DNA of 64,000 bases from Procambarus clarkii (taxonomy: Eukaryota > Arthropoda > Malacostraca > Decapoda > Cambaridae), in contig NC_091230.1 in NCBI RefSeq assembly GCF_040958095.1, forward strand, positions 8,734,728 through 8,798,727. The letters run 5' to 3'. The stretch's first letter is position 1, and every line of letters starts with the position of its first letter. The notes below the pieces were generated by a model that was given only the letters and a program-made list of their open reading frames with translations, was not told the DNA's origin and ran no database searches. The position numbers and the translations under genes were made by a program. Positions 19,766 to 34,236 of the stretch are shown in pieces.

Positions 19766-19906
19766 AGTAGTAGGGATGACATGCTAAACAGGAATTTTTT
19801 TGGTCGGGAAATTCCCGTTTTGCGTGTGAGGGTTTTCAGGTGAATTTGGCCGGTCACTGATTTGGAATTAAGGAATTCTTAGAGAAAAATAATTTCCGAG
19901 AATTTA

Positions 19907-20030
19907 GAAGTTTGTTAAAAGTTCTTATGATGAAAATATGTTCATAGAAGTTTGTTAAGAGTGCTTATGATGAAAATATGTTCATAGAAGTTAGTTAAGA
20001 GTTCTTATGGGAGAAATTCAAAATTCCCGA
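19907..20030 (+). repeat. 40-bp tandem repeat in left arm
   Basis: gaagtttgttaagagttctt recurs at 19907, 19947 and 19987, with looser copies to 20350. The same array is in the right arm near 34000-34100. Confidence 0.85.
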
Positions 20031-20589
20031 TTTGCGTGTCAAGGTTTCCAGGTGAATTTGGCCTGTCACTTGATTTGGAATTTAGGAAATCTTATGGGGA
20101 AAATAATTTCTGAGATCTTAGAAGTTTGTTAAGAGTTCTTATGAGGAAAATAAGTAGGAAAATCTTATAGAAAAATTTTAGAAATATCGTGTTTAAGTCA
20201 CACAGTTTCCGGGTAAACTCTATGGACATATTTTACCAGTTTTCAAAACCGTGTATTTTTCAAATACCATTTTCTGAGAATATGTTCATAAAAGTTTGTT
20301 AAAAGTTCTTATGAAGAAAATTATTCATAGAAGTTTGTTAACAGTTCTTATTGGGAAAATTCAATTTTTTTAGAGTTCAGTTTTAAGAAAATATTTCTGA
20401 GTTTCAAATAATCATACAAGTTTATTTATATGTTTATGACCAAATTTTGTAAAAAGACCATTTTCAGAAAATATTGTCTTAGTCGTGACTTTAAGTTTTA
20501 TAACCATTTACGGCTGTTTCACCTGTAAGACCCAAAAAATAGTCAGAGACAGTTTATGCCTGAAAATAATCTGAGTCAAGTTTTACCTT

Positions 20590-21050
20590 GAAAATTAACA
20601 GAGTCCTGTTATTAATTTAAATTCTTCAGAGTCCACTTTGTGAGCAAAATTCTTCAGAGTCCAGTTTGTGCCAGAAAATATTCACAATCCTGTAATCTAC
20701 GAAAATTAGGCAGAGTTCATTTAAGATCGAAAATTAGCCAGAGTCCAGTAAAGACAGAAAATTATTCAGAACTCCAGTTTATACCCAAAAATAATCAGTG
20801 TCCAATTAACGACAAAAATTCGTCAGAGTCCAGTTGTTAACCTAAGTTATTCAAAGTTCAGTTTGTGCCCGAAAAAATTTAGAGTCCTGTAATCTGTGAA
20901 AATTAGACAGAGTCCATTTTCAAACCAATTTTCATCAGAGTCCATTTTATATCAAAAATTCGTCAGAGTCCATTTTGTGTCCAAAATATTCGGAGTCCAG
21001 TTCATGATAAAAAATAATCAGAGTCCAATTGAAGACCAAAATTTGTTAGA
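20590..21050 (+). repeat. ~40-bp degenerate array with CAGAGTCC core
   Basis: At least eleven copies of a unit containing cagagtcc followed by AT-rich sequence and aaaatt. The right arm has the complement (ggactctg) at 33030-33450. Confidence 0.85.
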
Positions 21051-21089
21051 GCTAGCATTTTCGCTACTTTTCGCCCAATTTTAGCCTAA

Positions 21090-21620
21090 TTTTAAACAGT
21101 CATATTTCAGACGTAGTAATAAGATCCTAACAAATACCAAGTTCTAGCTCCTGTCCTCAGCCTTTGTTCCCTCTCGTATCTTTGGTAATACCTAAACAAT
21201 TTCCCAGAAATTTTAATCCCTGTATTTCAGATACAGTAAATAAGATCAAGTCAGTTACCGAGCTCCAGCTCTTGTTCCCCACCTTAGTTCATTTGTACAA
21301 GTTCTTTAGAAACAGACCATTTTTCCGCAAATTTAAAGCAGATATACTTTAAAGGTAGTAAATCAAATCAAAACAGTTAACAAGCTCCAGCTCTTGTCCC
21401 CCACCTTAGTTCTCTCTCATAACTTTGTAATAACCAATAAATTTTCCTGAAATTTTTAACATAGTTGTTTCAGACGTAGTAAATAAAGCCAGTGCAGTTA
21501 CCGAGTTTTCTACTCTTGTTCCCTGCTTAGCTCATTTGTACAAGTTCTTTATTATCCGACCAAATCACCTGAGATTTAAGATCACCATAATTCTAACGTA
21601 GTAAAATTAATCAGGATATT
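21090..21620 (+). repeat. ~115-120-bp tandem repeat in left arm
   Basis: Repeated blocks: tcagacgtagtaa(a)taa..., gttaccgagctccagctcttgtcccc..., ctttagttcctttgta-like. About four copies. Mirrored at 32280-32960 in the right arm. Confidence 0.8.
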
Positions 21621-21979
21621 AGCCTAGCTCCATTTCCTCTGCCTTTGATCATCAAACATAAATATTTCCGATCAAGTCCCTCTCCAGCCTAACTCATTAT
21701 CAGAGTAATCACCTAACCCCAACCTGCATAATTAACTTTTCAACCCCTCCCACCTTCCTCCATCTCATCCAAGTCTCATAAATTAAAATGTAGCTGTTAA
21801 TTTGCTTTCTTTCCCAGTTCATAGAATATTCTCTGTAAGTACAGATCAGTACTTAGTCTTGCATATTCTCTAGTTCTTTTCATTTGATATAAGACTTAAA
21901 CAACTATTACTATGCATCCTATCATATTTTAACATGACTCATATGTAAATATACCCAACTCCTTCCTTCCATTACTCGT

Positions 21980-30824: not shown

Positions 30825-30857
30825 ATTTCTTGAATACCTGTATATGTTAAATGTTGT

Positions 30858-30863
30858 AATAAA
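30858..30863 (+). promoter_or_regulatory. Poly(A) signal AATAAA for rightward genes
   Basis: 132 bp past the stop of the methyltransferase-like frame. It is the mirror partner of the AATAAA at 22737-22742. Confidence 0.55.
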
Positions 30864-31352
30864 CTCGATGTCTCTTCTAAATAAGATTCCTTTATCCTTA
30901 ATAGAATAATTTGCTTATTACATTGGGGACTAAAACAAGTACTTAATTATGCCACTGAATAATGACATGTTGTAGTAAGTTTAATGGAAATATTGCTTAC
31001 AATGACTTGAAAAGATACCTTGGACTACTGAAGGTGTATGTTTAATAAAGCTGAGTTAAGATCGAATGTCTTATGATGCGACTGTAAGTAATGACCTAGT
31101 GCACTGGCAAGTATCTTTAATTGTACGAAGATGTCTTAGAATGATTATATTGACGTGGTTTTGAAAAAAAAATGGATAACTACTAAATGCGCTGTAGTAA
31201 CTCATTGAAAATTAGTAATGTTACTGTTGTTGTTGTTAACGATGATCTACTTACTAAAATGACAGAAACAACAATTTAAGAATTAGTGCAAAAGATGAAT
31301 AGAGAACATGTTGGGGACTGTAATGAACGGGTTATCTTGAGATGATTTCGGG

Positions 31353-31557
31353 ACTTTTTAGTGTCCCCGCGGCCCGGTCCTCGACCAGGCCTCCACCCCC
31401 AGGAAGCAGCCCGTGATAGCTGACTAACACCCAGGTACCTATTTTACTGCTAGGTAACAGGGGCATAGGGTGAAAGAAACTCTGCCCGATCCCGACACCC
31501 GGGACCACAGGATCACAAGCCCAGCATGCAGTCCGTTCGGCCGACCGGCTCCCAAGA
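31353..31557 (-). mobile_element. tRNA-derived SINE in the right inverted repeat
   Basis: Minus-strand copy: tail agtgtccccgcggcccggtcc, body gtacctattttactgctagg, B box inside cgggaccacag, and A box near ggccgaccgg at the right end. The left arm has the empty site, so it inserted after the element formed. Confidence 0.85.
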
Positions 31558-31793
31558 ACAGGTAAGAAGAAGAAAAAGGTAAGGGTAAGAACATGTAGTG
31601 GAGGGATGGAGGAAAATTGTAAGAAAGGGTTGCAAGTTGGGCGGGGAACATGCTGGGACGTGTAAAGGATTGAGAGAGATTGTAAGGGTTGGTACCAAGA
31701 TGCGCGGAAAACATGCTACAACATGTAAAGTATAAAGTGTAGTGAGATGTACGGTGAACATGCTGGGACGTGTAATGGAAGGAAGGAGTTGGG

Positions 31794-31890
31794 TATATAT
31801 ATATATATATATATATATATATATATATATATATATATATATATATATATATATATATATATATATATATATATATATATATATATATAT
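31794..31890. repeat. (TA)n array
   Basis: About 97 bp of TA repeats; the left arm has only atatgtaaatatac at the matching place (about 21950). Confidence 0.95.
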
Positions 31891-34236
31891 GAGTCATGTT
31901 AAAATATGATAGGATGCATAGTAATAGTTGTTTAAGTCTTATATAAAATGAAAAGAACTAGAGAATATGCAAGACTAAGTACTGATCTGAACTTACAGAG
32001 AATATGCTCTGAACTGGGAAAGAAAGCAAATTAACAGCTACATTTTAATTTATGAGACTTGGATGAGATGGAGGAAGGTGGGAGGTGGTGAAAAGATAAT
32101 TATGCAGGTTGGGGTTAGGTGATTACTCTGATAATGAGTTAGGCTGGAGAGGGACTTGATCATATATATTTATGTTTGATGATCTAAGGCAGAGGAAATG
32201 GAGCTTGGCTAATGTCCTGATTAATTTTACTACGTTAGAAATATGGTGATCTTAAATCTCAGGTGATTTGATCGGATAATAAAGAACTTGTACAATTGAG
32301 GTAAGCAGGGAACAAGAGTTGAAAACTCGGTAACTGCACTAGCTTTATTTACTACGTCTGAAACAACTATGTTAAAAATTTCAGGAAAATTTATTAGTCA
32401 TTACAAAGTTATGAGAAATATGGTGGGGGACGAGAGCTGGAGCTCGATAACTGTTTTGATTTGATTTACTCCTTTGAAGTATAACTGCATTTAATTTGGG
32501 GAAAAATGGTCTGTTACCAAAGAACTTGTACAAATGAACTAAGGCGGCGGACAGAAACTGGAGCTGGGTAACTGACTTCATCTTATTTACTATGTCTGAA
32601 ATACAGAGCGTAAAAATTTGAGGAAAATTGATGGGTTATTAGCGAAGATACGAGAGAGGGCTAAGGTGGAGGACAAGAGCTAGAGTTTGGTAAATGTGTT
32701 ATCTTTACTTACTCAGTTAGAAGTATGGCGGGTTTAAATTTCATGAAATTTAATGGGTTACTAACGAAGATGTGCAAGGGAACAAAGGTGGAGGACAAGA
32801 GCTGGAGCTCAGTAACTGACTTGATCTTATTTACTGCATCAGAAATACAGGGGTTAAAATTTCTGGGAAATTGTTTAGGTATTACCGATGATACAAGAGG
32901 GAACAAAGGCTGAGGACAGGAGCTAGAACTTGGTATTTGTTAGGATCTTATTACTACGTCTGAAATATGACTGTTTAAAATTAGGCTAAAATTGGGATAA
33001 AAGTAGCGAAAATGCTAGCTCTAACAAATTTGGGTCTTCAATTGGACTCTGATTAATTTCGATCATGAACTAGACTCTTAATATTTTTGGCACAAATTGG
33101 ACTCTGACGAATTTTTGGTATAAAATGGACTCTGATGAAAATTGGTTTGAAAATGGACTCTTGTCTAGTTTTCACAGATTACAGGACTGAATATTTTTCG
33201 GGCACAAACTGAACTCTGAATAATTTAGATTAACAACTAGACTCTGACGAATTTCTGTCGTTAATTGGACTCTGATTATTTTTGGGTATAAACTGGAGTT
33301 CTGAATAATTTTCTATCTTTACTGGACTCTGGCTAATTTTTGATCTTAAATGAACTCTGCCTAATTTTTGTAGATTATAGGACTCTGAATATTTTCTGGC
33401 ACAAACTGGACTCTGATGAAATTTGAGCTTTAAACTGTCTCTGACTATTTTTTGGGTCTTACAGGTGAAACAGCCGTAAATGGTTATAAAACTTAAAGTC
33501 ACGACTAAGATGTCTGTTTTCCTTGACAAAACGTGTAAGACAATATTCTCTGAAAATGGTCTTTTTACAAAATTTGGTTATAAACATATAAATAAACTTC
33601 TATGATCATTTGAAACTCAGAAATATTTTCTTAAAACTGAACTCTGAAAAATTTGAATTTTCCCCATAAGAACTGTTGACAAACTTCTATGAAATTATTT
33701 TCCTCAAAAGAACTCTTAACAAACTTTCATGAACATATTCTCAGAAAATGGTATTTGAAAAATACGCAGTTTTGAAAACTGGTAAAATATATCCGTAGAG
33801 TTTACCCGGAAACTGTGTGACTTAAACACGATATTTCTAAAGTTTTTCTATAAAATTTTCCTCATAAGAACTCTTAACAAACTTCTAAGATCTCAGAAAT
33901 TATTTTCCTCATAAGATTTCTTTAATTCCAAATCAGTGACAGGCCAAATTCACCTGGAAACCTTGACACGCAAAACGGGAATTTTGAATTTCTCCCATAA
34001 GAACTCTTAACTAACTTCTATGAATATATTTTCATCATAAGAACTCTTAGCAAACTTCTATGAATATATTTTCATCATAAGAACTTTTAACAAACTACTA
34101 AATTCTCGGAAATTATTTAATTTCCAAATCAGTGACCAGCCAAATTCACCTGAAAACCCTGACACGCAAAACGGGAATTTCCCCCCCCCCCCTCAAAAAA
34201 AAAACAATTCCCCTTTAGCGTGTCATCCCTACTACT

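Follow-up and report, generated by a model that had tools for sequence, protein, structure and literature searches.

Mavericks, also called Polintons, are the closest described relatives of the element reported here. In the accessible part of a vertebrate survey (PMC8097293), their commonest end motif is (AGT)2//(ACT)2, their insertions are flanked by 6-bp duplications, their terminal arms measure 46-1,447 bp, their total size is 12.7-24.6 kb and their core genes are intronless. According to the same source, protein-primed replication is believed to use the repeated ends for jumping back. Mavericks have also been reported from other crayfish (PMC13130569, as far as that text is accessible), namely Faxonius immunis and Cambaroides japonicus, with 0.01% of reads in each. 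Here we describe a unit of 14,471 bp at positions 19766-34236 of a 64-kb stretch of the Procambarus clarkii genome (contig NC_091230.1, positions 8,734,728 to 8,798,727; hereafter the window). This unit carries a gene for an inhibitor of apoptosis (IAP), three macrodomain-like genes (genes 1 to 3) and a gene for a protein of 422 amino acids (the 422-aa gene). It is an old, decayed and itself invaded member of a real, numerous and recently active family, of which we found no published description in the open literature searched. Its ends and target duplication are those of Mavericks, and it differs from them in arm length and in every gene feature tested. We do not class it as a Maverick, but it acts as if moved by Maverick machinery. 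The family probably consists of non-autonomous elements that rely on a Maverick-type helper for replication and insertion.

Boundaries, target site and further copies

The limits of the unit and of its insertion site are as follows.

19760..19765, unstranded: left copy of the 6-bp target duplication, ATGTAC; sister satellite units have the site empty, and 36 ends fix the boundary
19766..22795, plus strand: left terminal arm, starting AGTAGTAGGGATGACA, with tandem sub-repeats of 40, 28, 122 and 108 bp
30805..34236, minus strand: right terminal arm, an inverted match to the left arm, interrupted by an inserted 250-bp repeat (31333-31582)
34237..34242, unstranded: right 6-bp target duplication ATGTAC; empty site and boundary as on the left
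34237..35090, plus strand: target, a tandem satellite with a unit of ~270 bp, also present left of the element at 19601-19765

The right end of this single bounded element is the reverse complement of AGTAGTAGGGATGACA. The two termini agree exactly over the outermost 16 bases, and differences begin further in. Inverted matches detected by blastn give arm lengths of 3,030 and 3,432 bp, and both arms are made up of the tandem sub-repeats of 28, 40, 108 and 122 bp. In a global alignment the arms are 92% identical overall, gaps excluded, with 93-98% in eight of ten bins of 300 bp; the other two align badly and reach 88% and 79%. An uninterrupted insertion site is present in sister satellite units within 34236-35090, and the joined flanks of the unit align at 83% with two such units. 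The complementary ends, inverted arms of about 3 kb and duplicated target proposed in an initial annotation of this DNA are thus confirmed by blastn, alignment and the empty site. The same annotation placed the insertion in a tRNA-like repeat. The target is instead the ~270-bp satellite, in which neither ARAGORN nor Rfam detects a tRNA or a small nuclear RNA (snRNA).

Taken by itself, the window copy fits a duplication of either six bases (ATGTAC) or eight (TATGTACA). We rejected the longer, hAT-like form, because other copies give six bases and put the boundary at the A of AGTAGT, the first base of the element. This boundary was read from 44 alignments, less six that repeat counted places and two that do not reach the end (L015, L026), which leaves 36 ends at distinct places. 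The first base is A in 34 of these and the next is G in 35; positions 3 and 6 are T without exception. Outside the element the bases vary. When ends with identical outer eight bases are merged, 29 distinct flanks remain, all of which start with A in the retained alignment, 26 of them with AGTAGT. This merging conceals both ends that do not start with A, namely L019 (T), which has the same flank as L017, and L008 (C), which lies in the same CA run as L007. The latter match is a coincidence of simple repeats. Paired duplications examined in eight copies are perfect over six bases in five (the window copy and the copies designated C13, C20, C46 and C85) and agree at five of six bases in three (C51, C11 and C4, the last of which sits in a CA run). 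The two common Maverick hexamers occupy 127 of 128,000 hexamer positions on both strands of the window (~0.1%), and the family-wide boundary and duplication strengthen the motif evidence beyond this background. Together, the other copies and the published end motif (PMC8097293, accessible part) support the kinship to Polintons that had been suggested from the ends and a 6-bp duplication.

Identical 30-base flanks were also observed at different places (L013, L014 and L018 on C3; L011 and L012 on C21; L028 and L029 on C82). Some copies thus probably spread by segmental duplication rather than by insertion. The diversity of the remaining flanks bears on Dada transposons, which resemble the present family in their 6-7 bp duplications and spliced genes (PMC3706591, in the part available). 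Dada elements target small RNA genes and encode a large DDE transposase, whereas here the flanks are diverse and no transposase was seen. With 29 distinct flanks among 36 ends, and no tRNA or snRNA at the window target, we rejected targeting of this type.

The family was traced in the genome that contains the window (4.03 Gb, 2,308 contigs). A search with P0001, a relative of gene 2, returned at least 131 matches (131 scored of 11,499 first-look candidates). The majority are 95-100% identical, many of them 99-100%, and the majority have no internal stop; eight copies of gene 2 differ by only 0-2 bases in 897. The outer arm gave 113 matches (40 scored of 1,927 candidates), a figure that is not a copy number, as many of these matches are several sub-repeats within one copy. 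The ends were checked for three of the 131 gene-2 matches. These young copies, C46 (11,938 bp), C20 (12,283 bp) and C85 (12,417 bp), are colinear with the window unit, share its five-gene layout, have AGTAGT/ACTACT ends and are flanked by the perfect 6-bp duplications CGCCTA, AACACC and GACGTT, respectively. The arms of C46 are 99.97% identical over 2,864 bases, which indicates that this copy was inserted recently or that its arms were held alike through copying. Arm identity is 99.1-99.3% in C85. C20 is less uniform, with 99.7% over 2,046 bases and just 89% over 1,519 bases of the outer part.

These copies also bear on another origin, in which a cluster of ordinary host genes gave rise to an inverted repeat by local duplication. 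The genes do appear to splice as host genes do. This origin, to which we give hardly any credence, is refuted by the exact boundaries, the target duplications and the spread of copies over many contigs. Other copies with these ends do exist, and the view that the unit is one mobile element, proposed from its exact ends and target duplication, is supported.

At one further place (C3:53836922-53837820; L013, L020-L022), the outer arm unit forms a tandem array with a spacing of 172 bases. This observation suggests that arm modules can grow into satellites.

Genes for replication, integration and packaging

Profiles from Pfam were run against 20 pieces of the window; 18 come from a set of 68 frames with at least 55 codons, the rest of which is mostly low-complexity or antisense. 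The only matches above the cut-off were BIR, RING and the RNase H of an inserted retroelement. A protein-primed family B polymerase was found neither in these pieces nor among the frames of the young copies, the longest of which, read from stop to stop in C46, C20 and C85, has 425 codons. The same Pfam scan, in which small frames were not all covered, and the frames of the young copies revealed no retroviral-like integrase. Genes for a capsid, an ATPase or a protease were equally not found by sequence profiles in the window pieces and young-copy frames (five frames scanned in C46, two in C85). The initial annotation had reported that no replication, integration or capsid gene is visible in the window, and the same holds in the three young copies. 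Since these copies likewise lack visible genes of this kind, decay of the window copy does not account for the absence. A Maverick polymerase would presumably escape notice in the young copies only if it were split over many exons. The further proposal of a non-autonomous passenger agrees with these observations as far as the missing genes are concerned; the helper that would move it is our postulate.

One copy of 18.9 kb (C13; L063, L064; C13:44203000-44216400) shares the ends, is flanked by a perfect 6-bp duplication and lacks this cargo. The 13.4 kb of its core that were read contain a reverse-transcriptase-like open reading frame and repeats. We considered this copy as a longer, complete relative and rejected it, as inspection by eye and blastn, with no profile scan, found no polymerase-like frame in the 13.4 kb.

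An element without visible replication genes could also be a foldback-type DNA transposon of some unfamiliar cut-and-paste superfamily that captured genes, with sub-repeat arms that bind a transposase made elsewhere. Tandem sub-repeats in long arms are indeed a feature of foldback elements such as Tetris, which also appears to be non-autonomous (PMC4079207, in the part available). Unlike Tetris as described there, the present element has Maverick-type ends and five cargo genes. Moreover, its ends are exactly (AGT)2 and its duplication has six bases, both as in Mavericks, and a transposase was likewise not found. We consider the foldback origin unlikely.

The cargo and its surroundings

The genes and their associated features are listed in order of position.

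22737..22742, minus strand: poly(A) signal AATAAA downstream of the IAP gene, within the left arm
22789..24259, minus strand: IAP gene with two BIR domains and a RING domain; three exons deduced from frames, exon 1 frame-broken in the window
24918..25686, plus strand: macrodomain-like gene 1; frame broken, start placed by eye, weak overlapping profile matches
25783..28375, plus strand: macrodomain-like gene 2 (P0001 family, 299 amino acids), split by two insertions; kinship to genes 1 and 3
25902..27467, minus strand: truncated non-long-terminal-repeat (non-LTR) retroelement with RNase H (Pfam RNase_H, E 5.4e-9), inside gene 2
~28067..28215, plus strand: short interspersed repeat in gene 2, approximate limits, absent from P0001
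28555..29061, plus strand: macrodomain-like gene 3, with one stop; hhalign to the gene-2 family, E 1.6e-7
29325..30723, plus strand: 422-aa gene; exon 1 29325-29340, intron 29341-29491, exon 2 from 29492; frame broken in the window
30858..30863, plus strand: poly(A) signal AATAAA downstream of the 422-aa gene, at an arm position equal to the left one

The assignment of an apoptosis inhibitor in the initial annotation is borne out by Pfam, which detects BIR (E 1.3e-10 and 5.3e-7) and RING (3.9e-9) in pieces of the window; one more BIR piece falls under the cut-off. The exon that encodes BIR and RING is open across 236 codons in all three young copies. In C85, the first BIR exon is whole (133 codons; BIR 2.7e-14, 69 of 70 profile positions), and in C20 it has the same 133 codons by a comparison of length alone.

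Gene 1 is likely a macrodomain gene. It gives weak, overlapping matches to phrog_335 ('phosphatase', 0.002), to DarG (0.0068 in PADLOC; the NCBIfam match to DarG has 0.11) and to PDB entry 5m3i ('RNase III inhibitor', 0.035); this last value lends weak support, and PDB sequence searches returned nothing significant. Genes 2 and 3 probably encode macrodomains as well, judging by kinship: hhalign, which was used to compare gene 2 with gene 3 and with gene 1, relates gene 2 to gene 1 with values of 8.8e-9 and 5.3e-5. The three macrodomain-like genes of the initial annotation therefore retain weak direct support for gene 1, and genes 2 and 3 follow through this relationship. Pfam matches none of genes 1-3, even when P0001 or the open frames that C46 has for genes 1 and 3 are used, and PADLOC has none for five proteins other than gene 1. 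A tblastn search of phages with gene 1 yielded only rows with E 2 or worse, one of them annotated as Appr-1-p processing. Structure models reached a mean predicted local distance difference test score of 32 for P0001 and 30 for P0003 (a relative of the 422-aa protein), and neither is usable for fold comparison. Genes 1 and 3 form open frames of 232 and 242 codons in a young copy.

Two open reading frames, one called unknown and one methyltransferase-like in the initial annotation, are the two ends of the single 422-aa gene. The junction was read from the letters. The encoded protein is 89% identical to P0003, an uncharacterized protein of P. clarkii, and the intron at 29341-29491 is consistent with this predicted protein (MAAVYN-LP). 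A young copy contains the gene as a frame of 425 codons. Its sole good profile match is phrog_19090 (1.6e-10), annotated as function unknown, so the methyltransferase label is not confirmed. The 107-aa end piece gave no candidate in protein searches, and the whole protein found a single phage match by tblastn (E 0.4).

The cargo looks to be under selection. Between the window copy and C46, the ratio of nonsynonymous to synonymous substitution rates (dN/dS) is 0.248 for gene 2, 0.277 for gene 3, 0.407 and 0.171 for two pieces of the 422-aa gene, 0.446 and 0.438 for gene 1, and 0.323 and 0.104 for the IAP gene, the latter on 29 codons owing to the frame break in C46. All eight pieces are thus below 1 (range 0.104-0.446), and decay of the window copy raises these values. 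Four comparisons between young copies give 0.136-0.763, from numbers too small to use.

Similar genes occur in the endogenous nimavirus Nimav-1_LVa, which suggests another origin: the unit could descend from a large crustacean DNA virus of nimavirus type, as a mini-replicon or a cargo island that a borrowed integrase now moves. As described in the accessible part of PMC7016691, the IAP genes of Nimav-1_LVa bear introns and encode two or three BIR domains and a RING. The virus also carries wsv206-like macrodomain genes, and its G+C content is 34.6%. The low G+C content of the present element (34-35%, versus 43-45% in the flanks that make up the rest of the window) resembles this value. In contrast, Nimav-1_LVa measures 280 kb and inserts in telomeric repeats with no obvious target duplication reported in that part of the source, whereas here the target is a satellite and is duplicated. 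Pfam found no match to nimavirus core genes (no nimavirus set was searched), and scans of viral contigs found no relative of gene 2 nor of the other queries. A nimaviral origin seems quite improbable to us, more so than a foldback one.

The retroelement in gene 2 is flanked by a duplication of TTGTGCAAGGATT (25889-25901 and 27468-27480). Outside the unit, several similar reverse-transcriptase-like reading frames lie on both strands, head to head, at 39900-41814 and 46833-50782. They contain a motif reminiscent of Penelope-like elements. Long frames resembling non-LTR reverse transcriptases are open across 620 and 567 codons at 10479-12341 and 14277-15980. Flanking frames at 36054-36614 and 52972-55577 are reminiscent of a Gypsy-like integrase and gag/protease.

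A possible parasite of Mavericks

How would an element of this kind move? We surmise that a helper Maverick supplies a retroviral-type integrase, which would produce the 6-bp duplication, and a protein-primed polymerase, which may start on the repeated AGT ends by jumping back. The IAP and 422-aa genes face outward, each ends near an AATAAA at a matching arm position, and the arms start in the presumed 3' untranslated parts of these outermost genes. The long arms could have arisen by copying of one end onto the other in linear DNA, up to the poly(A) signal of the outermost gene. Copying would halt where a gene must be preserved, so that the arms begin at 3' untranslated parts and provide a shared terminator for both outward genes. 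The cargo of IAP, probable ADP-ribose macrodomains and 422-aa gene may owe its retention to a benefit for the element or the helper, which could thereby withstand cell death and antiviral signalling in the host.

The likeness to Mavericks, as far as these are described in the accessible part of PMC8097293, comprises (AGT)2//(ACT)2 ends, the 6-bp duplication, terminal inverted repeats and accessory genes. The size is similar, with 14.5 kb for the window copy and 11.9-12.4 kb for the young copies, slightly below the vertebrate range. Unlike Mavericks, the element has no visible gene for a protein-primed polymerase, integrase, ATPase, protease or capsid.

Several points weigh against movement by a Maverick-type helper. 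A helper with these ends was not seen and is our supposition. The longer C13 copy has the same ends and shows neither the cargo nor, in the 13.4 kb read, a polymerase-like frame. The arms of 2.9-3.4 kb (C46 and window) are at least twice the vertebrate Maverick maximum of 1,447 bp. Introns also seem to be present, as judged from frames and P0003, in contrast to the intronless Maverick genes of PMC8097293 (accessible part). A different integrase with 6-bp staggers could also have produced the duplication. C46 is not whole, as its first BIR frame, of 98 codons, breaks off within the domain and covers 46 of 70 profile positions. Finally, the dN/dS values come from small counts, carry no significance test and include the decay of the window copy.

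Movement by Maverick machinery remains the reading that we favor. A more specific and more doubtful version is that the family is a helper-dependent satellite of animal Mavericks. Such a satellite would have given up the genes for replication, integration and capsid, kept Maverick ends and a selected set of five anti-defence genes, and come to outnumber or depend on its helper, much like phage satellites and virophages. Packaging by the helper is a further possibility.

What defines Mavericks is their gene set. If a young, multi-copy family with their ends and footprint indeed lives without these genes, Maverick machinery can be parasitised, and such a parasite can have genes acting on apoptosis and ADP-ribose as its selected payload. 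Decapods would then have in this family a source of new immune-related genes, and its copies would be a natural test of the end sequences that the machinery needs.

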